Source: Flavobacteriales bacterium
GTDB taxonomy: Bacteria > Bacteroidota > Bacteroidia > Flavobacteriales_D > Sanyastnellaceae
Direction: 5' to 3'
Assembly: GCA_947442505.1 (NCBI GenBank)
Contig: CANEVR010000023.1
Location: 1-36,974, forward strand
Length of the DNA: 36,974 nt
A program made the position numbers and the translations under genes. Shown piece by piece: positions 877 to 22,202 of the stretch (its first letter is position 1; each line of letters begins with the position of its first letter). A model generated the notes under the pieces. It saw only the letters and a program-made list of their open reading frames with translations, was not told where the DNA came from and made no database searches.

Positions 877-3087
877 TCAATGGATAATGACCAATCGCTC
901 TCTGCCCTTTTCATGGACCACGAAATACAATCCATTGGGCCATTCACGAACTGAGAAATGGCCATTGGCTGACAAAGCCTGAATTACCCGACCTTGGGCA
1001 TCGTAAACCATCGCAGGACCACCTGACCAATTCACCTCATCCACTGCAGGATTTGGATAAAGGAGCATTGGACTTTGATTGAAATCAAGAATCGATGTCA
1101 CCAAATTGGAGGCACTGGGTGTTGAGGCTAATGTCCAAATCCAAGGCTGACCACCGTCTTCAGAACGAGCATAAGAATGGAGCAATGGTCCATTGGAATA
1201 AGTGATGGAATCAATCCAATGAAAATCGCCATTATCCCAACTGGATATTCCTACAAATTCAGTCCCATTGTTCAATTTAAAATTCAAATGCTTCTGTCCT
1301 TGTTCGGGTGAATCGTCTGCCCATAGCGTTAAAAAATTGGGCGTCTGCATTCCAAAATTTTTCAACTTCCACTTATTGGGGTCATTGGGATCATCCGTTA
1401 TCCAGAGATCGTTCCATAAGAAGGTACTGCCCGGTTCACGATAAATTTCAATCCAATCATTTTGTTCTCCCAACTCATCGGTAAAACCCATTGTTCCACT
1501 AGGGGCAATTTCGTTCACATAATATCCCAGATTATTTAGACCACAATGGCTCACAAAGATCTGACAGGGTTGAGATACCAAGACTTCTGAACCAGGAGTT
1601 ACTTGCCATTCAATGGTTCCTTGAAAACCTGCCAATGGGAGCGAAACCAACATACCATAGTCCCATGACGTTTGCCCTGTTATTTCTGAACTTAACACGT
1701 TCCAACTCGATGCACCTTGAATGCGGTAAGCGACATTGGCTGTATTCATTGTTGACCTAAAATACAAATGAGCTGTATCTTGTTCAACCTGAGAATAAAC
1801 CTGGTAAACAAGTGCCGGACTTGTCACATTGGCATCCAATTGACTTAATGCACTGGCGACACGTGCCTGGGTATACTCCCAAACACCCATGGTTACATGG
1901 TTGCCCCAAGTGCTATCCAAGGCATTCAAAAAATCATCTTCAGTAAAACCGTAATCCAACGTACGATAAGTATCCGTTAAAGCAGATGGCGTAATCAACG
2001 ATTGCACACTCATGACTCCATTGCTAAACTCCATTGAGCTCATGTAATTGGCGACCTCTTGAATGTAATAACTGTAAATCGCCCGAAAAGCTGGAATGGC
2101 CATCATCTTATTGTACAAGGGCAAATTGGCACTACCATCCCAATTGTAAATATTGCGCGTACTCCAAACAATGTTGAACCAATCAATCCCAAAAGTATTG
2201 TCTGTATCATAGGGAATGAATTCCAATCGATGCGTCAAATCATTTTGAAACAAATAGAAATTATTCTTATTGAAGTGCGCACCATCCCAATTCCCTGTCA
2301 TCACGTCAATGGCCATGTATTGCAGTAAACGATCTACATTCATTACCTTGCGCAATTCACAAACGATATTTTGATTGGATGTGTTATTCAATACATTCAC
2401 AAAATCCGCCAGATCTTGATAATCGTTCAATTGGGTGTTGTTTTCCAAATCATAGATTGGCGTTCCCCATGAGGTCAAGATTTGATAATCCGTTCCATTG
2501 GGGCCGAGATATTCAAGAGTGGCTGGATACAAACACTTCCATCGATTCCCTGTCTTTTCATTAAAATACAACTCTGTGAATAAATCATCTACGAATTCAA
2601 CATTGATGTAAAGCCCTTTGTATTCTCCATTCACATATAGTTCAGTGTAGCTCACCCGAGAACCAGGCAAACCAAAATGGCGGCAAATGTCCCAGTACAT
2701 TTTGGCGCGCAGCAGGCTGGGATCATTGTGGTTTCCATTGAGATTCAATTCCCTTAAACCCTGCCACTTGCCCACTCCACCTGGCAGATCAAAATCTATT
2801 TTGAAGGATTTCTTCCCGGCTTGCAGGCTGGTATTTCCGCGGGTTCTAAATCCAACATTGGCAATGGAATCATTTAATCCATTGGACTCAAAAACGAAAG
2901 TCGCGGGGAATTCATGACCATTTCCCAAAACATCCGGTGATAACAATAACGACAATGAATCGGGATGAATATAAACTTTGATTTTGGTTACTTCATCTTG
3001 TGTAAAAACACTTCCCCAGTCAGGCAATTGACTTATGCCTTGATTCAAAAAAAACAAACAGAACAAAAAGATTAAAGTAACGCGCAT
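877..3087 (-). CDS. secreted CotH-family protein with lamin-tail-like domain and T9SS sorting domain
   Basis: A 736-residue secreted protein. Residues 1-19 form a signal peptide. Residues about 25-415 are a CotH-like atypical kinase fold: GFRTRGNTS (79-87), LNLNGNHNDPSLLRAKM (114-130), VNGEYKGLY (152-160) and the acidic PYDTDNTFG (292-300). CotH of Bacillus phosphorylates spore coat proteins; many Bacteroidota homologues are secreted and uncharacterised. Residues about 520-660 resemble a lamin-tail (LTD) domain (YYVNEIAPSG, NDWIEIY, FKLNNGTEFVG). Residues 672-736 are a type A T9SS C-terminal domain (LLYPNPAVDEV, then WPNGLYFV), so the product should cross the outer membrane by type IX secretion. 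The start lies 2 bases after the prmA stop, so it is probably the last gene of the fmt-prmA operon. The target of the presumed kinase is unknown. Confidence 0.85.
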   Translation of the reverse strand: MRVTLIFLFCLFFLNQGISQLPDWGSVFTQDEVTKIKVYIHPDSLSLLLSPDVLGNGHEFPATFVFESNGLNDSIANVGFRTRGNTSLQAGKKSFKIDFDLPGGVGKWQGLRELNLNGNHNDPSLLRAKMYWDICRHFGLPGSRVSYTELYVNGEYKGLYINVEFVDDLFTELYFNEKTGNRWKCLYPATLEYLGPNGTDYQILTSWGTPIYDLENNTQLNDYQDLADFVNVLNNTSNQNIVCELRKVMNVDRLLQYMAIDVMTGNWDGAHFNKNNFYLFQNDLTHRLEFIPYDTDNTFGIDWFNIVWSTRNIYNWDGSANLPLYNKMMAIPAFRAIYSYYIQEVANYMSSMEFSNGVMSVQSLITPSALTDTYRTLDYGFTEDDFLNALDSTWGNHVTMGVWEYTQARVASALSQLDANVTSPALVYQVYSQVEQDTAHLYFRSTMNTANVAYRIQGASSWNVLSSEITGQTSWDYGMLVSLPLAGFQGTIEWQVTPGSEVLVSQPCQIFVSHCGLNNLGYYVNEIAPSGTMGFTDELGEQNDWIEIYREPGSTFLWNDLWITDDPNDPNKWKLKNFGMQTPNFLTLWADDSPEQGQKHLNFKLNNGTEFVGISSWDNGDFHWIDSITYSNGPLLHSYARSEDGGQPWIWTLASTPSASNLVTSILDFNQSPMLLYPNPAVDEVNWSGGPAMVYDAQGRVIQALSANGHFSVREWPNGLYFVVHEKGRERLVIIH

Positions 3088-9604: not shown

Positions 9605-9633
9605 TTTAAATTTGAACCACAACCAAACATTTG
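9605..9633 (+). promoter_or_regulatory. Possible promoter of the large CotH gene
   Basis: TTTA (9605-9608), a 17-base spacer and AACATTTG (9626-9633) resemble TTTG / TAnnTTTG with one mismatch in each element. The -7-like element ends six bases before the ATG at 9640, and the TTG at 9631 is part of this element rather than the start codon. Confidence 0.35.
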
Positions 9634-9639
9634 CACTGC

Positions 9640-12600
9640 ATGAATATTAAAAAAGAAATTTGGAAAGCCTATATATTGTCGGCCATGTTGATAGGCGTTT
9701 CAATATTAGCAAGTGCACAGTTAGTCATCAACGAGGCTTCTAATAGAAACTTTGACCAACTTTTGGATGAAGATGCAGAAGCGCAGGATTGGGTTGAACT
9801 ATATAACAACGGCACTGAAGCCATCAATCTCTATGGATACAGAATAAGTGATAATAGCCTAGCATCTGAAGGTTTTGTGTTTGGATCGTACATTTTGCCT
9901 CCCAATGAATACCTTCTTGTGTTCTGCAGTGGCAAGGACAGACAATATTCAGAGGCCTTTACTTTTGTGCATGGAACGGACGGTTTTATTCCTCAGAATG
10001 GGTGGAATGACCACAACTTTATCACTCCCTATTTATGGGACGGAGTAAGCAATTTAATCATCAACACATGTTCGTACAGCAATACAGGTTACACCGTAAA
10101 CAGCATTTTCAATCAAACTTACACCTCCTTTCCAAGTACTGTTGTTGCCGTTCAAGATGGTGGTGACGGGATTTGTGGAGCTCAAACAGGTAATGTGCAC
10201 AGTGTAAGACCGGTAATGAAAATCAATGGTGTTGTTATTGGAAGTTATGATTATGTCAACGGCACAACGGACTATCCTGCACCTTATGGAAATTGGTATT
10301 GGGCCGCTAGGAATCAATTCATGATTCGAGCAGATGAATTGAATGCTGCGGGCATTGCTCCAGGTGAGATTCAACAAATCTCTTTTGATGTCAACTATAC
10401 TGATTCTACATTGTATACCTACTTCAACGTTCAGATGAAGCAAGTTGGGCAAATGGAAATGACCAGTCAATTCATCAACAGTGAGGGCGCTTATTTTCAC
10501 ACCAATTTTGGTTTAAGTTCTTCCGGAGATTCCTTATACTTGTTCAATCCGCAAGGGCAATTGGTGAATGATTTTTACGTCAACTGCCCGACATACAATA
10601 TCAGTCAAGGAAGGATACCCAATGGCATCGGCAATGAACTAACATTCTCGATACCCAATCCAGGTGAGTTGAACAACAACGATGTCATTGTTAACGGTAT
10701 GGCAAGCCCTCCACTTTTCTCAGAGAGTTCTGGCGTATTTAACGGCCTGATGAACATTGACATTTATGACACCAACCCGACGGGGGCAAGCATCTATTAT
10801 ACAACCAATGGAAACGAACCCACCGTTAATGACAATTTATACAATGGAAATTCCATTCCCATTTTTCAGTCTACTGTTTTAAGAGCCAAATCGTTTGTCT
10901 CAGGAATGTTACCCAGTGAAATGACCAGCGCTAGTTATTTGATCAATGTCAATCACTCCACGCCTATCGTCAGCGTAACTACTGATGCAAGCAATCTTTA
11001 TGGCGCAGAAGGGATTTTTGACAACTGGTGGCAAGATTGGGAGAAGTATGCGCAAATGGATTACTTTGATTCTACAGCACAACACCAATGGGTCTTTTCG
11101 AGACAAGCAGCCATGCAAATTGATGGAGGAGCCGGAGGCAGTAGATCCCATCCACAACACAGCTTTCGATTGGAGTTTGCAAAATCTATTTTCAATGAAA
11201 ATCCTGTTTTACTGCCATTGATTCCGCACCAACCCAATCGTGCGGATTATGACAGATTGTATTTCAGAAATGGGAGTAATCAATGGTTACAACTCCCATA
11301 TAAGGATGGTGCATTGACCGAAATGACCACAAGAGCCAATCATGGCTATTACTCCACCATGCGTCCGGTGAGTGTGTACCTCAACGGACAATACTTTGGC
11401 TTATATGAAATGCGCGAGAAATTGGATGAAGAGTATTTTAAACATCAAGACAATGGGTCCAAAAGCAGCATGGACGTTTTATCCTTGAGTTATTGGAATG
11501 GCGGGGTATTGCGCGCAACTGCTGGCGATGTGAACAATTATTGGAACGACGTGGGATACTTATGGGGATTAGATCCCAATGCCCCCAATTACCTTCAAAC
11601 GATTGATTCCATTTTTGACATGACCTACCTTACAGATTATATCATTGGCGAATCCTATGTAACCAACTATGATTGGCCATACAACAATATTAAAATTCAC
11701 CGCAGTGACTCTACACTTAATAAATGGAGATTTGCAACAATTGACATGGAATTGAGTTTGCAACCCAATGGTTGGAGTGATTGCAATTCCAATGGTTTGG
11801 AGCATGCTTTGGGCAATGGTCAAGACAATCCATTCATCAGGCCATGGTGGCAAAGTTTAGCCAACCCTCAATACAGGAGATACTTCATCAATCGCTACGC
11901 GGATGTATTAAATTCAAGTTACCGAATTGAAAGATTATTGGATGTAGAAAATAATTTTTTCAATATCTGGACTCCTGAGATGCCCAATGAATATCAACGA
12001 TGGGGAGATCCTTGGAACGTTGGGGGATGGATGCAAGACTATTACAATCGTCATTTACAAATGCGAGAAGAGTTGCTGTGCAAGTCTCAGAACATCAGAG
12101 GACAAATACAAAGTGTGATGGGTTTGGGCACGCCAAGAGAGGTATCACTGAACATTGAGCCATCAGGCGCAGGTGAAATCCATTTGAATACACTAAGCAT
12201 TTCTGATAGCACTTGGACCGGCTATTACTACGAAGATGTAGATATTGATATTTTGGCCAACGCCAAACCAGGGTATCACTTTAGTCATTGGGGAATAAAC
12301 AATGTAATTGAGGATACGCTTAGTGCATTTTGGAACGGTCTTGTCAGTGAGGATAATTTGGTTTTTACTGCGTATTTTGAAGAGGATACAACCTTAATAA
12401 ATCCGGTATCAAATATTGATTTTGCTTCCGTTCTGTTGTATCCTAATCCATCGAGTGATGTTATTCATATCGTCTCAAAATCCGCAAGTAACAATGCTCA
12501 AATCTTTAACGCTTATGGTCAAGAGATAATGACGAAGATTTTTTTGGGTAACATAACTACTTTGAATATCTCAGATTTAAGCAATGGTTTGTACATAGCT

Positions 12601-12657
12601 GTCATTACAGATAGAAGGAGTGGCTTTATGAATACATTAAATTTTATAAAAAAGTAA
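9640..12657 (+). CDS. large secreted CotH-family protein with lamin-tail, CHB_HEX-like, InlB-like repeat and T9SS domains
   Basis: A 1005-residue secreted protein from the ATG at 9640 (an upstream TTG at 9631 is also in frame). Residues 1-27 are a signal peptide ending ILASAQ. A lamin-tail domain begins at 28 (LVINEASN, DWVELYNNG, NLYGYRISD, PNEYLLVFCSGKD to about 100). It is interrupted by about 180 residues and resumes at 285-345 (YFHTNFGLSSSGDSLYLFNP, GRIPNG, NPGELNN). Residues 355-435 resemble a chitobiase C-terminal-like domain (SIYYTTNGNEPT, VLRAKSF). Residues 440-815 are the CotH domain (RLYFRNGSN, VYLNGQYFGLYEMREKLDEEY, WRFATIDMELS). Residues 835-915 resemble an InlB/Flg_new-type repeat (KPGYHFSHWG). 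Residues 928-1005 are a T9SS type A sorting domain (LLYPNPSSDV, LSNGLYIAV). Probably a single-gene transcript; role at the cell surface unknown. Confidence 0.88.
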   Translation: MNIKKEIWKAYILSAMLIGVSILASAQLVINEASNRNFDQLLDEDAEAQDWVELYNNGTEAINLYGYRISDNSLASEGFVFGSYILPPNEYLLVFCSGKDRQYSEAFTFVHGTDGFIPQNGWNDHNFITPYLWDGVSNLIINTCSYSNTGYTVNSIFNQTYTSFPSTVVAVQDGGDGICGAQTGNVHSVRPVMKINGVVIGSYDYVNGTTDYPAPYGNWYWAARNQFMIRADELNAAGIAPGEIQQISFDVNYTDSTLYTYFNVQMKQVGQMEMTSQFINSEGAYFHTNFGLSSSGDSLYLFNPQGQLVNDFYVNCPTYNISQGRIPNGIGNELTFSIPNPGELNNNDVIVNGMASPPLFSESSGVFNGLMNIDIYDTNPTGASIYYTTNGNEPTVNDNLYNGNSIPIFQSTVLRAKSFVSGMLPSEMTSASYLINVNHSTPIVSVTTDASNLYGAEGIFDNWWQDWEKYAQMDYFDSTAQHQWVFSRQAAMQIDGGAGGSRSHPQHSFRLEFAKSIFNENPVLLPLIPHQPNRADYDRLYFRNGSNQWLQLPYKDGALTEMTTRANHGYYSTMRPVSVYLNGQYFGLYEMREKLDEEYFKHQDNGSKSSMDVLSLSYWNGGVLRATAGDVNNYWNDVGYLWGLDPNAPNYLQTIDSIFDMTYLTDYIIGESYVTNYDWPYNNIKIHRSDSTLNKWRFATIDMELSLQPNGWSDCNSNGLEHALGNGQDNPFIRPWWQSLANPQYRRYFINRYADVLNSSYRIERLLDVENNFFNIWTPEMPNEYQRWGDPWNVGGWMQDYYNRHLQMREELLCKSQNIRGQIQSVMGLGTPREVSLNIEPSGAGEIHLNTLSISDSTWTGYYYEDVDIDILANAKPGYHFSHWGINNVIEDTLSAFWNGLVSEDNLVFTAYFEEDTTLINPVSNIDFASVLLYPNPSSDVIHIVSKSASNNAQIFNAYGQEIMTKIFLGNITTLNISDLSNGLYIAVITDRRSGFMNTLNFIKK

Positions 12658-12764: not shown

Positions 12765-14234
12765 CTATTGGGGTTTTGCGCAACGATATCTCTTGCTTAA
12801 TTTGTTGTGGCCGTTCAACGCAATGGAGACGACTTCCAATCTTCCACTCTCTGAGTTATTTAATCGGCATTTTTGCTCAAGCCATTCCAACGCAATTAAA
12901 ACTTCAGATGCATAATCTTTAGGTTGGCTGGATAAACCGATCAATTGTGCAGGGACTATACCCGATATTTCCTCAACCACATGCCAATAATCATCTATTG
13001 TAAATCCAATCGTTTGGGTATTATACTTTAACAACATCGCTCTCATTACATCGTCAAGTGACTTCTCTCCGAATTTGGATTTGATTATGAAAACATCGGT
13101 AAGAAATGCCAATAGCGCGCCTTCATTATAAATAGACACTTTCCTTCCCGGAGTACCTTTTACATATCCATCTACCCAGGTATCAATTGAACTGTCTAAA
13201 AGAGATGATGAAAATCTTCCAGGATTATTCAAGTGCGTATTGAGCCAATCCAAAATGCAAGTAACCAATTTCTCCCAAGACCAAACACCAGATTGCCACA
13301 ACATCAATTCACCGTAATAGGTAGTTATCCCCTCTGTGATAAAACCAGCGGCGCTGAACTGAGCTTGTGTAAAATCATAGGGGAAAAGATCTTTTGGTCT
13401 ACAATATTTGACATTCCAAGTATGGAATAATTCGTGTGACGATATCGACAATATCTCATCATAAAAGACTTCATCACTAACTTCCCCTTGCCCCATTACA
13501 ATCATTGTAGCGTTACAATGCTCTACCCCGTGACGCATTCTATATGGTGTGAAAATAAAGATGTAATGATAATCCTTTACTGGAAATCCATTCATCATTC
13601 TCACTTGAAACTCCGTGAATTGAATCAAGGAAGAATAATCACCTTCGCGCCAAGGCTTTGGCAGTTGACCAATGCTATGGCAATTGAATTCTACCCCTTC
13701 AGAAATCCACTGAAATCTTGAAATGACGGGAGCCAAGACAAAGGGACTATCGGCCAATTGGTCAAAGTTCTTGGCTTCCAAATAGATCTTCCCATCTTGA
13801 TTCTGAATGGGCAGACCTCCGGCATAATTCCAGTTGTCTTTTAATTCAACGGTTAGTCTGATGGGTTCCATTTCTTTTTGTTTTACAAAACAAAAAAGAT
13901 TAACGGGATTGACATAAAACAAGGTGTCCGACAAAAAGCTGCTACCGGCATTGAGCTCGTGAATACACCACTCGTAGGAAACCAGAATGTTTTGCGACTC
14001 ATTGGACTCAATTCGCCAATGGTTGGGTTGGATCTTGGTGACGCTGAGCGAATCACCATTTCCAATAACCCTAAAATTCCTAGACCACTTGACAAAGTTG
14101 CCTGGCTCATATCTTCCTGGACGCCAGAAGGGAAAGAACAAATCTGAAACCCCTGCTGGAACAGCCCATTTCATTTCGATATAAAAGGCTTTTTCCGGAT
14201 CTGTTTTGGAAGGTGCAATAAAATATTCGTTCAT
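12765..14234 (-). CDS. M61 family metallopeptidase (glycyl aminopeptidase-like), short form without PDZ domain
   Basis: A 489-residue zinc peptidase. The N-terminal beta domain carries FFPFWRPGRYEPGNFVKW (33-50), matching the M61 opening PxWxPGxY. The gluzincin-like core contains MRHGVEHCNAT (233-243; family GLEHxNS/T), the zinc motif HELFH (267-271) within SHELFHTWNVKYCRP, and the third zinc ligand Glu301 in FITEGITTYYGEL. M61 enzymes release N-terminal glycine or alanine. Most family members run to about 600 residues with a C-terminal PDZ domain; here the protein ends at 489 with no PDZ-like sequence. No signal peptide is visible, so it is probably cytoplasmic. Its ATG overlaps the phosphatase stop (ATGA), implying co-translation. 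Confidence 0.88.
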   Translation of the reverse strand: MNEYFIAPSKTDPEKAFYIEMKWAVPAGVSDLFFPFWRPGRYEPGNFVKWSRNFRVIGNGDSLSVTKIQPNHWRIESNESQNILVSYEWCIHELNAGSSFLSDTLFYVNPVNLFCFVKQKEMEPIRLTVELKDNWNYAGGLPIQNQDGKIYLEAKNFDQLADSPFVLAPVISRFQWISEGVEFNCHSIGQLPKPWREGDYSSLIQFTEFQVRMMNGFPVKDYHYIFIFTPYRMRHGVEHCNATMIVMGQGEVSDEVFYDEILSISSHELFHTWNVKYCRPKDLFPYDFTQAQFSAAGFITEGITTYYGELMLWQSGVWSWEKLVTCILDWLNTHLNNPGRFSSSLLDSSIDTWVDGYVKGTPGRKVSIYNEGALLAFLTDVFIIKSKFGEKSLDDVMRAMLLKYNTQTIGFTIDDYWHVVEEISGIVPAQLIGLSSQPKDYASEVLIALEWLEQKCRLNNSESGRLEVVSIALNGHNKLSKRYRCAKPQ

Positions 14235-15955
14235 TTCTTATCAGGGCTATTCAAACATCCTGATGGTCTATTGATATTGAGCAAATCTGAAATGATTGGT
14301 GCAATATCAGTAATGGACAAGGATTCATTGGCAATGCGATTAAAGGCAATTTCTGGTAAATTACAATTCCAGATATTACCAAATAAAATGAATGGTACGT
14401 GGGTGTCATAATCATAACCGGAGCCATGTGTAGTCCCTTGCTTGCCATATTCAATCCAACCTGGTTTCAAGACATAAATCACATCACCTGAACGGTGTTG
14501 ATCAAAACCTCGTTGCACACGTTCTGCAAAATCTTCTCGGGCAATACTGTAGGATAATTCAGCATGAGTATAGGCTGACTGAACGCCTTCAAATGAACAC
14601 GCCCAAATCGCCACCTCTTGCTGAATGGACTTTAAAGACAATTTCTTCTGCTCAACCCACTCCCGATTTAAAAACACATTTTGATTGGACTCGTTGATGA
14701 TCCAATCCCCTGCTCCATACTTTTCGATAAGTTTGTTTTCCAAAAACGTTTCCAATTTATCGGAAACAAAATTACCCGCCGCCAATTTTCGATCCATCAT
14801 CATAGCGGGGTTATTGGCAGCACCATGATCAGCTGTTAAAAAAATCAAGTAGCTATCACGACCGATGGTCGTATCCAAATAATCTATGAAATTGCTTATA
14901 TCCCTATTCAATCTCAAATAGGTGTCTTGGGTTTCTCTGCTGTGCGGACCGAATTGGTGGCCAACGTAATCTGTTGCAGAGAAACTCACACACAACATAT
15001 CGACAACACCATTTTGTTGCCCTAAACGCTCTCCCTCTATTGCAGCCTTAGCAAACTCCACAGTCATGGTATTGCCAAAAGGAGTGGCTTTCATCAAATC
15101 ATATTGATTATTGAGATTGGCCAATTCAGAAAGCTTGTAAGGGAAAACAGGTTTAATCAAACCTTTAAATGGCGCCTCATAAGGATTGTTGTCCGACAAA
15201 CTTTCGTTGTAAAAACTATCCGGATACATTAAGTTCCAATCACTCTTCAATACCTGAGCCCCATAACCTTTGACATTGAAATCTTGAACCCACTTTGGAA
15301 GTTCTTTCATGCCGTACCAAGAAGACGTAGCCCAAATGTCTTCCTTACCACCAATGTACCAATAGGCAGCATCAGCAGAACGACCGGCAGGTAAAATGGC
15401 ACCTCTGTCCTTTAAACTAATCCCTATAACTTTAGACTTTCCATTTGACATCAATTTTAACTCATCACCAATGGTGGTGGACAGCAAATGAATCGGAGAC
15501 ATTTTACCAGCCTCACTCAATGTGCCAACACCAACCACATTGGTATCCTTGGCGCAATACTGAAGCGCATTTCTTTTTTTATCGTACCAATCATTGGCGA
15601 TGATTCCATGCGTTACAGGCGTTGCTCCTGTAAAAATACTTGCATGACCTGGACCTGTATACGTCGGTATATAGTTGTAATGCGTATTGGAATTGGAGAG
15701 GCCTTCGAAAATCAATCTGGGAAAACCTCCTGCGTCCAATTCAAAATCTTGCTCAAATCGCTGCAGATAATCATAGCGCATTTGATCCACTGTTATTCCA
15801 ATCAACAATCTAGGCAGACCATCCTCTTGAATCACTTGGGTCACTGAGGTGTCGATATAAGCATACTCCATTACTCCCTCTTGCGCCATGTGAAATTTTG
15901 ACCTACATGACAACAAGAAAAACCCAACAATACAGAACCCTAAGATTTTTTTCAT
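14231..15955 (-). CDS. pafA: PafA-type alkaline phosphatase lipoprotein
   Basis: A 574-residue lipoprotein: the leader ends in LLSC (Cys17), so it is lipid-anchored and periplasmic or surface-exposed. It belongs to the alkaline phosphatase/NPP superfamily, and the residues that define PafA monoesterases are present: metal ligand Asp57 in ITVDQMRYDY, nucleophile Thr100 in PTYTGPGHASI, Asn121 in IIANDWYDK, and the Lys182-Asp-Arg184 pair in SLKDRGAILPAG. Metal ligands continue in SATDYVGHQFGPHS and LTADHGA. PafA of flavobacteria hydrolyses a wide range of phosphomonoesters and is reported to work regardless of phosphate supply. It lies 42 bases after the second receiver gene. That gap holds a TATTTTTG element, so it may be read from the signalling operon, from its own promoter, or both. 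Confidence 0.88.
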   Translation of the reverse strand: MKKILGFCIVGFFLLSCRSKFHMAQEGVMEYAYIDTSVTQVIQEDGLPRLLIGITVDQMRYDYLQRFEQDFELDAGGFPRLIFEGLSNSNTHYNYIPTYTGPGHASIFTGATPVTHGIIANDWYDKKRNALQYCAKDTNVVGVGTLSEAGKMSPIHLLSTTIGDELKLMSNGKSKVIGISLKDRGAILPAGRSADAAYWYIGGKEDIWATSSWYGMKELPKWVQDFNVKGYGAQVLKSDWNLMYPDSFYNESLSDNNPYEAPFKGLIKPVFPYKLSELANLNNQYDLMKATPFGNTMTVEFAKAAIEGERLGQQNGVVDMLCVSFSATDYVGHQFGPHSRETQDTYLRLNRDISNFIDYLDTTIGRDSYLIFLTADHGAANNPAMMMDRKLAAGNFVSDKLETFLENKLIEKYGAGDWIINESNQNVFLNREWVEQKKLSLKSIQQEVAIWACSFEGVQSAYTHAELSYSIAREDFAERVQRGFDQHRSGDVIYVLKPGWIEYGKQGTTHGSGYDYDTHVPFILFGNIWNCNLPEIAFNRIANESLSITDIAPIISDLLNINRPSGCLNSPDKK

Positions 15956-15997: not shown

Positions 15998-16450
15998 TTA
16001 AGATTGAGAAAGAAGATTTCTCAACTGCGAGCGCAAATGAAAATCCTCTTGAAAAACAGAAATCGCTTTCAGTACAGATTGGTTCAAGTAATCTGGCTCC
16101 CAGGGCTTACCAACGTATCGAAACAATTCCATGTGATGCAGAACTTTCAAAACATTGTCTACCTCCGCTTGACCGGTGAGCATCATTTTTTTGGAACGCG
16201 GGCAAATTTCATGCGCTTGAATCAAAAAATCAGAACCCAAAAGACCGGGCATCAGGTAATCAGAAATAATCAAAGCCAAAGGCTGTTGTTCATCCGAACT
16301 GAGTTGTTTGACCAATTCCAAACCTTCATAACCACTGGAAGCTCGCTCGATAATAACATGGTCGGGAAGAAAACGCTCCAATTGAATTCTGAGAACTTCA
16401 AGAATAAAAGCATCATCATCAACCAATAAAATGGAGAACTGCTGACTCAT
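15998..16450 (-). CDS. stand-alone response regulator receiver protein (second of two)
   Basis: A 150-residue receiver domain with no DNA-binding or enzymatic output. Acidic pocket DDD (11-13), phospho-acceptor Asp64 in IISDYLMPG, Thr92 in MMLTGQAE and Lys115 in YVGKPWEPDYL complete the CheY-like active site. A helical tail of about 25 residues (FQEDFHLRSQLRNLL) follows. The KPW motif after the lysine is frequent in receivers of phosphorelay networks. It begins 2 bases after the stop of the other receiver and shares the RIQLER helix and a 14-base identical DNA stretch with it, indicating tandem duplication. It probably receives phosphate from the upstream histidine kinase and acts by protein-protein contact. 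Confidence 0.92.
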   Translation of the reverse strand: MSQQFSILLVDDDAFILEVLRIQLERFLPDHVIIERASSGYEGLELVKQLSSDEQQPLALIISDYLMPGLLGSDFLIQAHEICPRSKKMMLTGQAEVDNVLKVLHHMELFRYVGKPWEPDYLNQSVLKAISVFQEDFHLRSQLRNLLSQS

Positions 16451-16452
16451 TA

Positions 16453-16854
16453 TTATGCGGATAGATTGGCCTTTAATGCATTATTGATGACATTCACCAA
16501 ATCCTCTTCACTCCAAGGTTTCAGCATTACTTTATCTATGGTTTGACTAGCAACCAACGCCATTGCCTTTTCCTCTTGCAATTGCCCGGAAAGAACAACG
16601 ACTTGAATTTTGGGATTGATGGCCTTAACATGTTCCGCTAAAACATCCCCATTTTTGGAAGGCATAATCCAATCTGAAATGATAACAATGAGCTCAACTC
16701 CTGTTGACGTAATGTCATCAATCACAGCAATGGCTTCATCGACATTTTGTGCAAACTCCAATAAATGCGTCTCCCCAAAATGTCGTTCCAATTGAATTCT
16801 CAATGAATTCAAAACCAAGATATCATCATCTACTGAAAGGATAGCGGATTTCAT
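16453..16854 (-). CDS. stand-alone response regulator receiver protein (first of two)
   Basis: A 133-residue receiver-only protein. Acidic residues VDDD (8-11), phospho-acceptor Asp61 in IISDWIMPSKNGD, Ser89 in VVVLSGQ and Lys112 in VMLKPWSEEDL are all present, so it should be phosphorylatable. There is no output domain. Its ATG overlaps the histidine kinase stop (ATGA, 16851-16854), a strong sign that the kinase is its partner. It resembles the following receiver (LRIQLERHFG versus LRIQLERFLP). Confidence 0.93.
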   Translation of the reverse strand: MKSAILSVDDDILVLNSLRIQLERHFGETHLLEFAQNVDEAIAVIDDITSTGVELIVIISDWIMPSKNGDVLAEHVKAINPKIQVVVLSGQLQEEKAMALVASQTIDKVMLKPWSEEDLVNVINNALKANLSA

Positions 16855-19805
16855 TCTATTTTGCTTTTTGGCAAAGTAACGATAAATCTGGTTAAACGCT
16901 CATCACTTTCACAGACAATGCTTCCCCCTTGCTTCTCAATAATCTTTCTGACGATATTCAAACCCAATCCTGTTCCCTCTCCTCTGGCCTTGGTTGTAAA
17001 AAACGGTTCAAATATTTTGTCCACTATCTCTGATGGAATCATTGGCCCATCATTGGCAACATTGATGACATGGTGCGTTGGCGTATCTGTATACTCAAAT
17101 GCAATCATGCAATTGTTGCCGGATGCTTGCAGTGCATTGTTCACCAGATTCGTCCAAACCTGAGACATCTCCTCTGCCAAACCAAAACAAACGATATCAT
17201 CAGGAATGGCATTGACCACTCTTGAACCTTGCTTAATTTTATTCCATAGGATGGTGAGAACAGTGTCCACATTCTCCTTTAGATTAAAATTGGACTTTTG
17301 AGACGATAGATTACCGTGGGCAAAGCTGTTTAAGGCCTTTACAACCTTGCTGCCTTGATCAGAAGAAGCTGTAGTAGTATTAATGCTTCGCAGAATCAAA
17401 ACAAAGTTCAAACTCAACTGAAAAATTTGTTCTGCTTTCTCTAATCTCATCCATTGCTTTATATCGTCATCAATGGTAAAAATTCCCATCTGCACCAACA
17501 TTCTGGCCATCTTGGTTTTTACTCGATCATTCATTTCTATGTCTGACATTTGAGCAATTACTTTCTGGATGTATTGCCTTTCCTCGGATGTAGATAAATT
17601 AATGATTTGGGCTCTTTCGTACAATCGGATGGCCAACATCAATTCCGAAGGCTCCATTTGCGCAATCAATTTCATGACACCTTCAGTGAACAAATACTTC
17701 AGGTTTTCGCCGGAAGCCTTTATGGCTCCCAATGGCGTGTTGATTTCATGAGCAATTCCAGCAATCAACATCCCCAAAGTGGAGAGTCTTTCCTTGCTCA
17801 CAATCTCCGATTGTGCCATTTTCAGCTCATCCAATGATTTTTCAAGTGCATCTGTTTTATCTCTTAATTCAGACTCTGCATGGGTCAACTGACTGACCAA
17901 ATGAGACAACTTCTCCTCATTCTGCTTTCTTTCTGTGATGTTGTGTAAGTATGCCCGCAACAATTTTTTCTCTTCCAACATGAACAAATTGATCTCAAAG
18001 ATCAATCCTTTGTAATGAAACTCTCCCTTCTCATGGTCCACTTCAAGGTCATGAGAAGTTATATTAAAAGTCAACAACAATTCAACAAAAGGCAGATTCA
18101 ATAAATCCCCCAAAATTCTTTTGGCCGCGGGGTTAACGTAATTCAGATTGGAATTCAACAAATCAAACTCCAGAACTGGATTTGGATTTTGCTCAGGAAA
18201 AAGCGCCAGATTTGCAATGTGTTTGGTTTTCTCTTCAACGGCTTTTTCAAGTCCTTCATTGATTGTTCTGATTTCCGCTCTGGAGTCCTCCAAAAGCTTC
18301 ACATACTGCTCTCGTTGGAGCTCCATTTCCTTGCGATCTGTGATGTCGTTCTCAACAGCCATGTACCCGGTAACATCATTTTTAGCATTGACAAGGGGAA
18401 CAATATTAATGGACAACCAATACTCATTTCCGGACTTTCCTTTGTTCAACAACTCAGCCCAAACAGATTGTCCCTGAGCCAATGCCAAATTTATTTTTTC
18501 AATCTCCTTTCTATCTGTCTTCTCAAACTGGAACATCTTGGGAGATTGACCGATGATCTCTTCCATGCTGTATCCGGTGATACTCAGGGCACTATCATTT
18601 ACCCATTGAATCTTCCTTTCACGGTCTGTGATGATTACCGCATTGGATGTCTTTTTGGCTACCAATGAAAGGATGTTCAATTCTTCTTGTGCATGCACCT
18701 GCTCTGTAATGTCTTGCAATACGCCAGCCAACTTAAAGTCGTTGGTTTGGGCATCTTGAACAAATTCACCAATACACTTAACCCAAATCACTACTTGATC
18801 AATGGGGCGTCGCAAACGGAAATTCAGCTCGAAACGACCTTTGGATTGAAATCCCGTTTGAAAAGATTGCTCAACCTCCTCTGCATCATCGGCAAAAACG
18901 ATGGCCATGAAATGGTCATAATCCTTGATAAAATCCTCTTTGATGCCGAGTAGCAATTTCAAGTTGTCACTGCCCTCCCAAGTATCATTCTCTAAGTTGT
19001 ATTCAAAACTTCCCAACTTGGAGATGGTTTGGGCCACATTCAAATCTTCCAAAGCGTTGAACAAATTGTTGGTGCGCAACCTGACCTCCTCTTCCAAACC
19101 TGCAGTCAATTGATCATTGGTGACCTTTTGTTGTTTCAACGTTTGAGACAATGAAAGCAATGAGTCTTGCAGAGAAATCAACTCTTTGGCTTGGTAATTA
19201 TTTTTGGCCTCCTTAATTTCAAAATTGCCTTGCTGCAGCGCCATCGCATTTCCCTTCACCAATTTGATGGGATCTGTGATGAGATTGGCCAAGAAATAAA
19301 CAATCACTAAAATCAAAGCCGCTATGAAAGTCAAGAACAAAAAGATTGGTCGATTCATACGGCTCACATCTTGTTTCAAATCTTCCCTGCTCACGGTCAA
19401 CATAACGTGACCTTTAAAGCCTTCCGTTTGAAATCCATCGCTCACAGATAAGAAATGAATCGTGTCTCTTTCCAATGATTCATGAGAAAGCGTATCCGGC
19501 ATAGTCACAGTGTACTCAGGCTGTCCCAAGCTGTCCTCTAAAACATAGGATACCGCTAACAACTCGGCATCTGATTGCAGGTGCTTCATCGTCTTGGACA
19601 AACCCTGCAAATCGTCACGATCCAAACTCAACTCTACGCTTAATGCCAAAATAGAGGCCTGCTGTTTTAACTCAGACAATTTGTACTCCACCAGCAAAGC
19701 CCTTTGGCGGGATGGATAATACATCGCCAAAACACCTATCAGCACCAAAACGATGATGGTATACGGCAACCAAATTTGGGTAAATATGCTGGATTTAATT
19801 TTCAT
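16851..19805 (-). CDS. membrane sensor histidine kinase with HAMP, three PAS domains and an extended DHp region
   Basis: A 984-residue inner-membrane kinase. Transmembrane helix 1 spans about 13-30, a periplasmic sensor about 31-150, transmembrane helix 2 about 153-174 and HAMP about 175-228. PAS-type domains lie at about 258-370, 380-490 (NAVIITDRERKIQWVNDSA, a textbook PAS) and 525-625, each followed by D/NITE or DITD-type linkers. The H-box is AGIAHEINTPLGAIKA with phospho-acceptor His686. The ATPase domain has the N-box WTNLVNNALQA (884-894), G1 VANDGPMIP and F/G2 FEPFFTTKARGEGTGLGL (932-949). About 100 extra helical residues (705-815) separate the H-box helix from the next helix SKVVKALNSFAHG. 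No receiver is fused. The ATG overlaps the upstream PstS-like stop (TAATG). Confidence 0.93.
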   Translation of the reverse strand: MKIKSSIFTQIWLPYTIIVLVLIGVLAMYYPSRQRALLVEYKLSELKQQASILALSVELSLDRDDLQGLSKTMKHLQSDAELLAVSYVLEDSLGQPEYTVTMPDTLSHESLERDTIHFLSVSDGFQTEGFKGHVMLTVSREDLKQDVSRMNRPIFLFLTFIAALILVIVYFLANLITDPIKLVKGNAMALQQGNFEIKEAKNNYQAKELISLQDSLLSLSQTLKQQKVTNDQLTAGLEEEVRLRTNNLFNALEDLNVAQTISKLGSFEYNLENDTWEGSDNLKLLLGIKEDFIKDYDHFMAIVFADDAEEVEQSFQTGFQSKGRFELNFRLRRPIDQVVIWVKCIGEFVQDAQTNDFKLAGVLQDITEQVHAQEELNILSLVAKKTSNAVIITDRERKIQWVNDSALSITGYSMEEIIGQSPKMFQFEKTDRKEIEKINLALAQGQSVWAELLNKGKSGNEYWLSINIVPLVNAKNDVTGYMAVENDITDRKEMELQREQYVKLLEDSRAEIRTINEGLEKAVEEKTKHIANLALFPEQNPNPVLEFDLLNSNLNYVNPAAKRILGDLLNLPFVELLLTFNITSHDLEVDHEKGEFHYKGLIFEINLFMLEEKKLLRAYLHNITERKQNEEKLSHLVSQLTHAESELRDKTDALEKSLDELKMAQSEIVSKERLSTLGMLIAGIAHEINTPLGAIKASGENLKYLFTEGVMKLIAQMEPSELMLAIRLYERAQIINLSTSEERQYIQKVIAQMSDIEMNDRVKTKMARMLVQMGIFTIDDDIKQWMRLEKAEQIFQLSLNFVLILRSINTTTASSDQGSKVVKALNSFAHGNLSSQKSNFNLKENVDTVLTILWNKIKQGSRVVNAIPDDIVCFGLAEEMSQVWTNLVNNALQASGNNCMIAFEYTDTPTHHVINVANDGPMIPSEIVDKIFEPFFTTKARGEGTGLGLNIVRKIIEKQGGSIVCESDERLTRFIVTLPKSKIE

Positions 19806-20239
19806 TAATTGACAACCGTTATCAATTGTCCACTAGGGATAAGACTCTTCTTGTCCGCAGTAAAAACACCAATAGCCCCTGGTGTGCGCTTCACATAGTC
19901 CACCATTTCCTGCTCTGAATCAAAAAAAACGGGTGACTTGGCTCGACCTTGAAAAACCAAAGACAACCAAAATTTCTGAACCTCTTTCACAGACTTATTG
20001 TACACCTTGGTATAAACTTCTTGCGCTTTGGCTGATTTGGTGCCCGGCAGGCAAATTACAACCGTCTTTCCATTCTTCCACAAAGTCTCCTTTCCGGTAA
20101 AAACACGCTGTATCTTGGCATTGGTCATGCTTGTCATACCGACCTCATTTCCAAAGTAAACCACATTCTGCGACCATGCGAATTGTGAAATCATCCACAA
20201 TGCCACTATCATTAGCCCTCGGTATAATCTAGAATCCAT
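19805..20239 (-). CDS. small PstS-like periplasmic substrate-binding protein (half-size)
   Basis: A 144-residue exported protein with a signal peptide (residues 1-24, ending FAWSQ) and a mature part of only about 120 residues. The pattern VYFGNEVGM, IQRVFTGKETLWKNGKTVVI, VQKFWLSLVFQG and TPGAIGVF matches the short 'phosphate ABC transporter substrate-binding' family, where a W-x-x-G segment and a terminal PGAIGY/F motif recur. No permease or ATPase genes are nearby, so a transport role is doubtful; I infer ligand sensing for the kinase that follows with a 1-base overlap. I chose the ATG at 20239, which overlaps the porin stop by 11 bases. The longer frame to 20287 lies within the porin gene and would hide the signal peptide. 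Ligand (phosphate or another oxyanion) is inferred. Confidence 0.82.
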   Translation of the reverse strand: MDSRLYRGLMIVALWMISQFAWSQNVVYFGNEVGMTSMTNAKIQRVFTGKETLWKNGKTVVICLPGTKSAKAQEVYTKVYNKSVKEVQKFWLSLVFQGRAKSPVFFDSEQEMVDYVKRTPGAIGVFTADKKSLIPSGQLITVVN

Positions 20240-21290
20240 AAGCCAATTGGAATTTAAAGTCATAACGTTCAACATGCAAATCACCATGGTGACTCAAGTG
20301 ACTATCGTTAGAAATGGTTCTTTCTACTTGAAACTTAACATTACATGTCTCACTGAACTCATACTTATAACCGATGGCCGTTTTTAATTGTTTACCAGGC
20401 GCGGCATGCAAATCATTATCTGAAATATGCATGAAGTCAGCCACAGCATACACGGTATTCACATCCTTCACTTTAACGCCCAAATAGTTGAATGAGGAAA
20501 AATTCTCAGCCTTACCCAAGCTATCTGTAGTGTTCACCCCGTATCCTGTTTCACTCATAAACTCATATTGATCCGTAAATCGTTTGATGGATAAACTGTA
20601 CAGTTCAAAATTCAAAGCTCCTTCGTAACCGCTATTATATGAGGCGTGACCACTGTGAACTCCTGGTTTGTTCGTAGGCATGTAATCATTGTAATAAGAC
20701 GCCCCAATACGCGTGTATTCGTCAGGCCTGATGTGCATTCCCAGCATCACAGCTTTGTTGGTGCTGCTGTCATAAACATCCGTAGAGGAGATTCCATTTC
20801 CAATGACAACATCATATCCAAAATTCAATTTACCTAGGTACTGACCTCTGAAGGAAACACCGGATGTATGCACAGGAACCATTGTATTAAAAAACAACGG
20901 CCGATCAATCGATGGAAAAAACAATCGACCATGGTGATACTCATCATTCCAAGTATTGACTGGCGTGTGAATTTTACCCATGATAATGCTGTGATTGCCG
21001 TAATAATCCCACTTCATCTGGGCGCGTTCTATACTGGGAGCGAATTTTGCTGCGGTGGCCGCGTCATATTTAACCACTGTTTCCCCCAGGAAACTGATAC
21101 GATCCGTTAGCTTAGCAGTGACAAAAAAATCTTGCTCTCCCAGAGAGAAATAAGAATTTTGATCCTGATCAAACTTATCCAAATTGTATTGCATATGCCC
21201 ATACAATTTCAAATCAATATTTCGATCAGATTGTGACCATCCCCATATTGATTGCACAAGGAGGCCACTTGCGAAAATTATTTTTTTCAT
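20229..21290 (-). CDS. outer-membrane porin-like beta-barrel protein
   Basis: A 353-residue protein with a signal peptide (residues 1-19, ending WGWSQ) and alternating amphipathic strands throughout, closing with a terminal aromatic (QLAYGF) as in outer-membrane barrels. The start IDLKLYGHMQYNLD and the segment FFVTAKLTDRISFLGE resemble porins of the phosphate-selective or general OprP/porin type, but I cannot assign a substrate. It is the first gene of the run porin > PstS-like > kinase > two receivers and overlaps the next gene by 11 bases. An exact -7 element lies upstream (21308-21315). A role in admitting the ligand sensed by the downstream proteins is inference. Confidence 0.8.
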   Translation of the reverse strand: MKKIIFASGLLVQSIWGWSQSDRNIDLKLYGHMQYNLDKFDQDQNSYFSLGEQDFFVTAKLTDRISFLGETVVKYDAATAAKFAPSIERAQMKWDYYGNHSIIMGKIHTPVNTWNDEYHHGRLFFPSIDRPLFFNTMVPVHTSGVSFRGQYLGKLNFGYDVVIGNGISSTDVYDSSTNKAVMLGMHIRPDEYTRIGASYYNDYMPTNKPGVHSGHASYNSGYEGALNFELYSLSIKRFTDQYEFMSETGYGVNTTDSLGKAENFSSFNYLGVKVKDVNTVYAVADFMHISDNDLHAAPGKQLKTAIGYKYEFSETCNVKFQVERTISNDSHLSHHGDLHVERYDFKFQLAYGF

Positions 21291-21338: not shown

Positions 21339-22202
21339 TTAATAATAGAACGAGGCTGTTAGCGTCTTGTTCCATCCATTGGTCTCCCAATCCCACAACT
21401 TCATTTTCTCCCGGTAAGTTCCAAAAGAAATATCCGCGGAGTGACCTGTTCCCAATGGAAATTCAAATCCAATTTGAACTCCTGCGCCCATTCCAGTAGC
21501 TGTTCTTGGGACGTATCCATACGTTTGATTAAAGTTGTCCCCACCAATAAACAAATCATAAGTTCGGTCAGCGATGTAGGCTTTGTTGTTAACTACTTTA
21601 ATACCTGTCAAGCTTATTCCTGGTTGAACAAAAAAGTCCATTCCTTCGTTGATTTCCCATCCTTGACGATAACCCAATACCATCTGAAAGCGCTGCTCAT
21701 TACCTTCAATGGTAAACAGACGAATATCTTGTTGCGCATTTTGTTGCGCCCCCGTACCTTCAAATATGACAGAATATTTGTCCACCGTTTTGATTCTTGT
21801 CGTTAGAAACTGAAAAACAAATGAACTGTATCGATCCAATCGGTAACGCAAATCCAAACCCAATGCGATGGCCGGACTATAGCGCATAGCCGTGGGATAA
21901 GCATAATTGTCATAATAGTTGGGAAAGGAAAATCCACTTGACCCATAATAGCTATTGATGTATTGGGTTTCCAATGGATTCCAATTGATTCTTTCCGCAA
22001 TCGACATGGCCCTTACACCGGCGTAATTGGTACCCGATTGAAGCACCCCTGAACCATTGTAAAAGTTGGCTGTGGTGTCCGACGCTGAATATGCCCCAAT
22101 GCGCAGACCGAAAGAAAATCCACGGTATTCGTCCTCTTGCGCCTTTGAACAAATTGGACTTATTATCAACATAAGTAGCGCTATTCTTGTTTTCATTGTC
22201 AT
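21339..22202 (-). CDS. outer-membrane beta-barrel protein, function unknown
   Basis: A 287-residue protein with a signal peptide (ending SPICSKAQ) and strand-rich sequence typical of small Bacteroidota outer-membrane barrels: GFSFGLRIGAYS, PAIALGLDLRYRLDRYSSFVFQFL, QRFQMVLGYRQGWEI, FFVQPGISLTG, GAGVQIGFEFPLG and the C-terminal TLTASFYY ending in aromatics. No catalytic or TonB features are visible. Start may be the ATG at 22202 or 22196 (MKTRIALL). It lies 48 bases upstream of the porin gene in the same orientation and could be co-transcribed with it, but the -7 element between them suggests a separate unit. It is divergent from the exonuclease gene with a 34-base gap. Confidence 0.75.
   Translation of the reverse strand: MTMKTRIALLMLIISPICSKAQEDEYRGFSFGLRIGAYSASDTTANFYNGSGVLQSGTNYAGVRAMSIAERINWNPLETQYINSYYGSSGFSFPNYYDNYAYPTAMRYSPAIALGLDLRYRLDRYSSFVFQFLTTRIKTVDKYSVIFEGTGAQQNAQQDIRLFTIEGNEQRFQMVLGYRQGWEINEGMDFFVQPGISLTGIKVVNNKAYIADRTYDLFIGGDNFNQTYGYVPRTATGMGAGVQIGFEFPLGTGHSADISFGTYREKMKLWDWETNGWNKTLTASFYY

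Follow-up and report, generated by a model that had tools for sequence, protein, structure and literature searches.

We analysed a stretch of 36,974 nucleotides (the window) from a Flavobacteriales bacterium (assembly GCA_947442505.1, contig CANEVR010000023.1), in which five genes, all on the minus strand, encode a porin-family outer-membrane protein, a small secreted protein, a membrane histidine kinase and two stand-alone receivers. The small protein is predicted to fold like one lobe of the periplasmic substrate-binding protein (SBP) PstS and is called the mini-SBP here. Porin, mini-SBP and a membrane transducer with changing output form a general unit, which is kept far beyond the genus of the window. 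The features are as follows (aa, amino acids; TM, transmembrane segment):

20229..21290, minus strand: porin-family outer-membrane protein, 353 aa; signal peptide and C-terminal Phe by inspection
19805..20239, minus strand: mini-SBP, predicted secreted single PstS-fold lobe (domain II), 144 aa including the signal peptide; AlphaFold2, Foldseek, VIA-align
16851..19805, minus strand: membrane sensor histidine kinase, 984 aa; TM1, periplasmic PAS/Cache-like domain (about residues 31-150), TM2, PAS domains, HEINTPL H-box, HATPase_c
19131..19805, minus strand: sensor part of the kinase (residues 1-225), common to kinases, chemoreceptors and a SpoIIE phosphatase encoded beside mini-SBPs
16453..16854, minus strand: stand-alone receiver 1, 133 aa; acidic pair, phospho-Asp, Ser and Lys by inspection, without output domain
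15998..16450, minus strand: stand-alone receiver 2, 150 aa, without output domain

On re-reading the open reading frames (ORFs), the five genes with their overlaps of 11, 1 and 4 bases and a 2-base gap were found exactly as the first-pass annotation had described them. The 11-base overlap of porin and SBP holds if codon 17 of the SBP reading frame is the start codon; at its longest, this frame begins at 20287. It had also been claimed that the genes must be made together. The tight packing is confirmed, but packing is no proof of co-transcription. Promoter-like sites (25 versus 23.3 in shuffled sequence) and terminator-like sites (10 versus 8.4) do not exceed chance level, so that it is the gene packing which suggests a single transcript for the five genes.

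The signal peptide and the mature part of about 120 residues, both proposed earlier for the small protein, agree with its AlphaFold2 model. The model was built from 34 sequences and has a predicted local distance difference test score (pLDDT) of 87 overall and of about 95 in the mature part, while residues 1-23 are of low confidence and the fold begins near residue 25. The description as PstS-like applies to the fold rather than to the sequence. PstS proteins are the best structural matches of the model (Foldseek E 4.5e-5; VIA-align Z up to 12.5), but the match to PF12849 stays under the cut-off (20.4 versus 27 bits), and a comparison of SBP profiles with PDB sequences gave only marginal PstS matches (E 0.012). 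On 1quk, a phosphate-binding protein of 321 residues, the model covers residues 78-211 (Z 10.2, rmsd 2.5 Å, 107 residues). We take 1quk to be the E. coli PstS and this region to be its inserted second domain (domain II). As modelled, and the model is confident, the mini-SBP is one PstS lobe, domain II. It is not a PstS, because the mature protein covers one of the two lobes only. A truncated PstS pseudogene was ruled out, given 34 aligned members of near-constant size with nine invariant columns. Over 75 cases the ORFs are 134-187 aa long, except for one broken copy of 86 aa (in L163) and one ORF of 216 aa. The residues invariant in 34/34 sequences, W54, K89, W91, L92, V95, F96, G98, P103 and G121, may form a binding or docking face.

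In PstS, the phosphate ligands are carried by a loop, RxDGSGT in E. coli. The mini-SBPs show no conserved equivalent in our sequence alignment, which is not structure-based: columns 65-69 are mixed among the 34 members, and SGT or GSG occurs anywhere in only 3 of the 34 Bacteroidota-type and in none of 8 Proteobacterial proteins. Full-length PstS-like proteins of relatives have the loop in only two of the eight that were readable by the pattern (12 taken, four unreadable). Hence, the missing loop weighs little against phosphate, since most readable full-length relatives are without it too. Phosphate as ligand is not supported by the sequences, and we rejected phosphate binding deduced from the protein name alone, as the loop is not conserved in the family. 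The same genome encodes a clear full-length PstS-like protein on contig 77 (L174:7132-8052), which by inspection lies between a TPR-like gene and TonB/ExbD-like genes and not beside PstCAB (PstB and PstC were not searched for). Absence of an ABC (ATP-binding cassette) partner, as stated for the window, is borne out for the ATPase: around the 75 mini-SBPs, the nearest ORF that combines a Walker A motif with an ABC signature is 5.3 kb away, and none falls inside 3 kb; permeases and other transporters were not looked for.

Conservation of the neighbourhood had been named beforehand as a refuting test. Loci were gathered by the mini-SBP sequence and their neighbours were read only afterwards, except for three stretches (L171-L173) chosen after the sensor matches were known. 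Among 100 genomes (the window's own and 99 relatives), the mini-SBP was found in 14, its own counted, and a porin-family gene adjoins it in 15/15 loci shown. A collection-wide profile scan returned 42 named loci, mainly from Bacteroidota, with a porin-family gene directly upstream in all 42. A few metagenome-assembled genomes (MAGs) of the collection are labelled Calditrichota, Latescibacterota, Gemmatimonadetes or Verrucomicrobia. Binning errors are likely in the Gemmatimonadetes- and Verrucomicrobia-labelled ones, since L040 and L041 share identical gene sizes. In a phylum-wide sample, 30 of 395 genomes had a mini-SBP match, the own genome included. Cultured strains with mini-SBP and sensor include Algoriphagus marincola DSM 16067, Ilyomonas limi and Cognataquiflexum nitidum. 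We pooled the window, the 42 collection loci and the stretches around the 39 phylum-sample matches outside the window, and removed five of 80 SBP ORFs as near-identical (L039, L041, L048, L055, L069). With the size limit applied, L157 and L170 yielded no SBP ORF, and in L154 a third, partial copy fell short of the threshold.

Of the 75 non-redundant mini-SBP genes in this pooled set, 66 are directly preceded by a porin-family gene. In 67 cases more than 1.5 kb of contig is left, and 56 of these have a membrane transducer downstream on the same strand within 400 bp. The corresponding counts are 63/72 and 54/64 when L171-L173 are left out, 62/69 and 52/62 in a smaller pool (33 of the 39 phylum-sample matches), and 28/37 and 26/36 in the phylum sample alone. 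The E-values of the porin, SBP and sensor profiles are optimistic, since each profile started from the window sequence and was then iterated on the ORFs that had been fetched. In six of the nine cases without porin, its place is taken by an ORF of 372-397 aa that is unassigned or sub-threshold, and in L201 the porin overlaps beyond the 120-base limit; upstream of the mini-SBP in L161 and L205 no porin was recognised. Thus, porin, mini-SBP and transducer stay together far beyond the genus, and the neighbour counts, together with the reverse sensor test described below, rule out chance adjacency.

Some loci are of interest in their own right. L154 (3460-11104) carries tandem pairs of porin and mini-SBP, two full and one partial, before a single chemoreceptor gene, which suggests duplicated inputs to one receptor. 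In some Flavobacteriales, a gene for an H-NOX sensor of nitric oxide and additional kinase genes adjoin the cassette. H-NOX (PF07700) was confirmed at L020:9837-10373 and L024:12512-13057, while L033, L039 and L044 have a profile match only; L020/L038, L021/L039, L022/L044 and L024/L056 are the same contigs. A link between nitric-oxide signalling and the cassette is possible.

For the outer-membrane protein of the window, the designation as porin is a tentative one, taken from homology of profiles and not from a direct family match. The 353-aa protein has no Pfam match, and the porin profile found nothing among PDB sequences. The profile does align over 295 columns (E 3.4e-10) with the neighbours of Proteobacterial mini-SBPs, and two porin-like members of this set exceed the Porin_4 cut-off.

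The kinase had been described as having three PAS domains. Two are clear (279-362 and 388-490) and the third is sub-threshold (PAS_8, 19.9 versus 21.8 bits); in addition, Pfam recognises HATPase_c, and HisKA below the cut-off. The AlphaFold2 model of the sensor (pLDDT 80) has two long helices around an alpha/beta domain, the membrane helices being assigned by inspection, and its fold resembles the periplasmic domains of WalK and of the LapD type. Ribosomal proteins also rank among the fold matches and the assignment is taken from the top receptor rows, so we call the modelled domain PAS/Cache-like only loosely. Pfam names no periplasmic domain in the sensor family; HAMP is common (26/34), and LapD_MoxY_N occurs once in 34 (E 0.029).

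According to the sensor alignment, the first 225 residues of the kinase are a domain family common to the transducers beside mini-SBPs (33 of 42 SBPs and 33 of 38 sensors were kept in the alignment sets). The full-length sensor is present in 44 of the 56 downstream transducers, namely in 25 kinases, 10 hybrid kinases, seven chemoreceptors, one SpoIIE protein and one split kinase spread over two frames. The other 12 have a different or partly matching input (five chemoreceptors, five kinases, one hybrid kinase and one HisKA_2 kinase, the last being one residue short of the limit for a full-length sensor). Moreover, a Calditrichota-labelled MAG (L050) has a convergent chemoreceptor with the same sensor.

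The reverse test started from the sensor profile in the 395 phylum genomes and took the best 30 sensor matches listed and 40 SBP matches at E 1e-5 or better. Among the 20 sensor matches of at least 92 bits, 15, including the window's own, lie within 300 bp of a mini-SBP and four more within 4.2 kb, so that 19 are near one; the last has none listed on its contig. None of the next ten matches (71-85 bits) is near a mini-SBP. Some sensor-profile match exists in 346 of the 395 genomes; those listed are mostly partial and cover the HAMP-like region at the C-terminal end. Twelve short loci around full-length PstS-like genes served as a control and gave no porin, kinase, sensor or chemoreceptor match.

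Co-variation was measured in 34 of the 38 eligible cassettes of the smaller pool, which have porin, mini-SBP, sensor and kinase ATPase. Distances between mini-SBPs correlate with those of the porin (0.885), the sensor (0.809) and the ATPase (0.712). The SBP-sensor correlation remains 0.56 when the ATPase is controlled for, while SBP-ATPase drops to 0.17 when the sensor is; SBP-porin controlling for the sensor is 0.78. Permutations reached the observed value in 0/2000 cases, except for SBP-ATPase given the sensor (6/2000). The informative part is the contrast between sensor and ATPase inside one protein.

Relatives of the mini-SBP are also encoded on plasmids of Pseudoalteromonas, Photobacterium, Vibrio, Alteromonas, Saccharobesus, Pseudomonas, Massilia, Ideonella, Caballeronia and a Comamonadaceae bacterium, and the Bacteroidota and Proteobacterial profiles align over 138 columns with 99.5% probability. 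We examined 17 of 20 distinct plasmid records, for which the PLSDB gene tables are incomplete. An annotated porin neighbours the gene in six of them and an unannotated Porin_4 match in one more. Nine others have a neighbour of 318-452 aa called hypothetical protein, two of which were scanned without a Pfam match, and the L104 plasmid has no porin-sized neighbour. In 11 of the 17 records, a chemoreceptor, EAL protein or hybrid kinase is encoded next to the mini-SBP or at a distance of one gene. Where ABC-transporter genes are listed (L105, L107), they are separate from the mini-SBP gene and lie on the opposite strand; ABC-F proteins are also listed in L106 and L111. On two Alteromonas plasmids (L192:7241-10360 and L200:7121-10360), the porin-sized gene and mini-SBP adjoin type IV CRISPR csf genes.

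Both receivers of the window have the usual acidic pair, phospho-Asp, Ser/Thr and Lys by inspection, and Pfam shows no output domain in either, as had been stated. The pair as such is seen only in the genus of the window (L030-L032). Single stand-alone receivers occur elsewhere, downstream in L036, L043, L045, L048 and L067 and upstream of the porin in L037, L042, L053 and L055. The best NCBIfam match of both is the NosR-family receiver (NF053512), at 54 bits for receiver 1 and 84.5 bits for receiver 2 and thus under the cut-off of 400; in that family the receiver is joined to a cyclic di-GMP (c-di-GMP) phosphodiesterase, and the window proteins are receivers only. On contig 31 of the same genome, a receiver-SpoIIE protein lies beside a hybrid histidine kinase (L191:7439-8701), and its receiver is 42% identical to receiver 2.

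The five genes are part of a longer run on the same strand than was first described, which includes the following neighbours:

21339..22202, minus strand: 287-aa protein of no recognised family, 48 bp upstream of the porin gene
14231..15955, minus strand: PafA-type alkaline phosphatase, 42 bp downstream of receiver 2 (NF042991, 655.8 bits versus a cut-off of 650)
12765..14234, minus strand: M61 peptidase, following PafA

The 287-aa gene is also present upstream of the porin in L016 and L017 and missing at that place in L018. In both same-genus genomes with a contig long enough (L030, L032), PafA follows the operon in this order too; altogether it is beside the cassette in three of 81 stretches, all from this genus. 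Two CotH kinase-domain proteins, each with a C-terminal sorting domain for type IX secretion, are encoded at window positions 877-3087 and 9631-12657; the sorting domain of the first is below the cut-off (23.6 versus 27 bits).

What we computed are the gene order and its conservation, the single-lobe fold, a shared sensor with exchanged outputs, and co-variation. The earlier proposal that the small protein belongs with the kinase sensor and not with a transporter is upheld by the conserved neighbourhood, by the joint divergence of SBP and sensor and by the lack of an ABC-type ATPase within 3 kb. We therefore lean, with modest confidence, towards porin and half-SBP as a periplasmic input unit, which would control a membrane receptor through its co-varying periplasmic PAS/Cache-like domain. 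Ligand binding, docking, the direction of control and phosphotransfer would then proceed as follows. The porin most likely admits or captures a solute, which the single lobe would bind by itself, as a dimer, or jointly with the receptor, the latter then providing the missing face. The SBP complex would dock on the sensor. In the window, docking would set the autophosphorylation of the kinase, followed by phosphotransfer to both stand-alone receivers, to which the output of the system probably passes. Elsewhere, the same input would drive chemoreceptors, hybrid kinases or the SpoIIE phosphatase.

Several observations weigh against an input unit of this kind. Eleven of the 67 mini-SBPs have no transducer on the same strand within 400 bp. 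In five of them a transducer is nearby: L050 has the convergent chemoreceptor, L167 and L171 have sensor-bearing genes upstream of the porin, L201 has a sensor-bearing chemoreceptor 3.9 kb downstream of the mini-SBP, and the first copy in L154 has a second pair and a chemoreceptor nearby. Beside the mini-SBPs of L147, L150, L155, L160, L161 and L169, no same-strand transducer was identified. Likewise, four plasmids with a porin-sized gene and a mini-SBP (L108, L192, L198, L200) show no transducer nearby, and the porin may therefore be the primary partner of the mini-SBP. Five chemoreceptors encoded beside Bacteroidota mini-SBPs carry another input domain, and the inputs of Proteobacterial chemoreceptors look helical (4HB_MCP_1 in L104); hence one docking mode cannot serve all cassettes. 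Since the sensor profile was derived from SBP-linked sensors, the reverse test shows that this subfamily is nearly confined to mini-SBP loci, which does not extend to every related sensor. Shared descent through linked inheritance inflates all co-variation values. Moreover, ligand binding may be lost in the single lobe, because half of the usual cleft is missing.

More generally, single-lobe SBPs may be a separate class of signalling adaptors. With its own porin, the SBP would form a portable receptor across outer membrane and periplasm. Different phyla would have coupled this receptor to kinases, chemoreceptors, SpoIIE phosphatases and c-di-GMP enzymes, whereby the neighbouring transducer would read the outer-membrane traffic. 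We put this forward tentatively and would sooner bet against it than for it.

The main rival is a sequestration switch similar to YfiBNR, in which the half-SBP would be a periplasmic regulator and no ligand carrier; it would dock on the PAS-like sensor and be titrated by the porin upon outer-membrane perturbation. The available part of the YfiBNR report describes such a layout, with an outer-membrane part, a small periplasmic protein and an inner-membrane receptor with periplasmic PAS domain (PMC4655355). The SBP follows the porin most closely (0.885), the sensor model resembles LapD-type and WalK periplasmic domains, and the ligand loop of PstS is not conserved. However, no YfiB, YfiR or YfiN family was among the listed Pfam and NCBIfam matches of the five proteins (for kinase and receivers, the best 25 of NCBIfam) or of the sensor family, and YfiB is a lipoprotein and not a porin. 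The retained fold is that of an SBP lobe with nine invariant columns in 34 sequences, possibly but not necessarily a binding face. We consider this switch unlikely.

Less probable still is that the mini-SBP is an accessory of the porin, which aids it in uptake, channel gating or folding, with the signalling gene regulating the uptake system instead of being a receptor for the SBP. The SBP-porin pair is indeed the most constant element (66/75), and on four plasmid records it occurs without a nearby transducer. Against an accessory role, the periplasmic sensor co-varies with the SBP more than the catalytic domain does, and the sensor subfamily is found almost only near mini-SBPs; in addition, no ABC-type ATPase ORF is found within 3 kb of 75 mini-SBPs, other inner-membrane transporters not having been looked for. 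That a reduced PstS reports phosphate to the kinase, in connection with the downstream PafA, is very improbable: the domain II fold, the position of PafA directly downstream within the genus and the precedent of PstS-Pi and CtpL, as far as its source is available (PMC4926252), speak for it, but the ligand loop has no conserved equivalent (SGT/GSG in 3/34 and 0/8, though full-length relatives are mostly without it too) and PafA is restricted to 3/81 stretches of one genus.

If the input unit works as proposed, it would be a dedicated route from the outer membrane to inner-membrane signalling, and a function would be given to small proteins now annotated as phosphate ABC transporter substrate-binding protein. 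It would also name an input domain absent from Pfam and offer a natural part for biosensors. Since the mini-SBP is small and secreted, the ligand question is directly testable. So far, SBP-triggered receptors have mostly been studied with SBPs that serve transport as well.

Among the titles listed by searches of an open-access library, none describes a cassette of porin and single-lobe SBP, which does not prove that there is no such description; subscription papers and outside preprints were not covered. The first-pass annotation, too, knew of no characterised system with this exact composition. SBP-triggered signalling is described as widespread, and according to the available part of a survey, SBPs of at least 13 families can activate chemoreceptors, sensor kinases, c-di-GMP enzymes and Ser/Thr kinases (PMC9602780). 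A single-lobe SBP paired with a porin is not mentioned in that part (PMC9602780). As in such systems, a dedicated periplasmic SBP is encoded with the receptor in 56/67 cases here, and the receptor has a periplasmic domain as judged from its AlphaFold2 model (pLDDT 80).

In the phosphate chemotaxis of Pseudomonas aeruginosa, PstS-Pi binds the chemoreceptor CtpL, which itself does not bind the solute, as stated in the available sections (PMC4926252). A PstS-fold periplasmic protein thereby acts via the periplasmic domain of a receptor, which by analogy we propose here as well, and some of our cassettes also use chemoreceptors. Unlike the mini-SBP, PstS in that system is full-length, two-lobed and part of the PstSCAB transporter, and the same sections mention no dedicated porin (PMC4926252). 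The layers of YfiBNR, with an outer-membrane protein, a small periplasmic protein, an inner-membrane PAS receptor and a hand-over in the periplasm, are comparable too, although the protein families differ and YfiBNR, as far as its report is available, has a c-di-GMP output and the lipoprotein YfiB (PMC4655355).

AioX, ArxX and ArrX are SBPs encoded with kinases and regulators, and AioX belongs to a signalling cluster, as the available text of the study describes (PMC5908839). Like the mini-SBP with its kinase, AioX is a dedicated SBP of the oxyanion type encoded with the sensor kinase AioS, for signalling and not for transport (PMC5908839). In contrast, AioX is a full two-domain, PhnD-like protein, and that text mentions no porin (PMC5908839). 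Here, one lobe goes with a porin and with receivers that have no output domain.

Among the known systems, one involves OprB, which is a porin. The P. aeruginosa SBP GltB activates the sensor kinase GtrS, and the operon regulated by GtrS-GltR is named gltBFGK-oprB, so that SBP, sensor kinase and a porin gene come together as in our cassette (PMC7927077, available part). GltB differs in being the SBP of a glucose transport system that is controlled by its own two-component system, and that part does not describe it as a single lobe (PMC7927077). Overall, the best-supported reading, by analogy, is that the cassette resembles PstS-CtpL, AioX-AioS and GltB-GtrS in its working. Signalling by SBPs is already known; what appears to be new is that a single-lobe SBP is combined with a porin dedicated to it and with outputs that can be exchanged.

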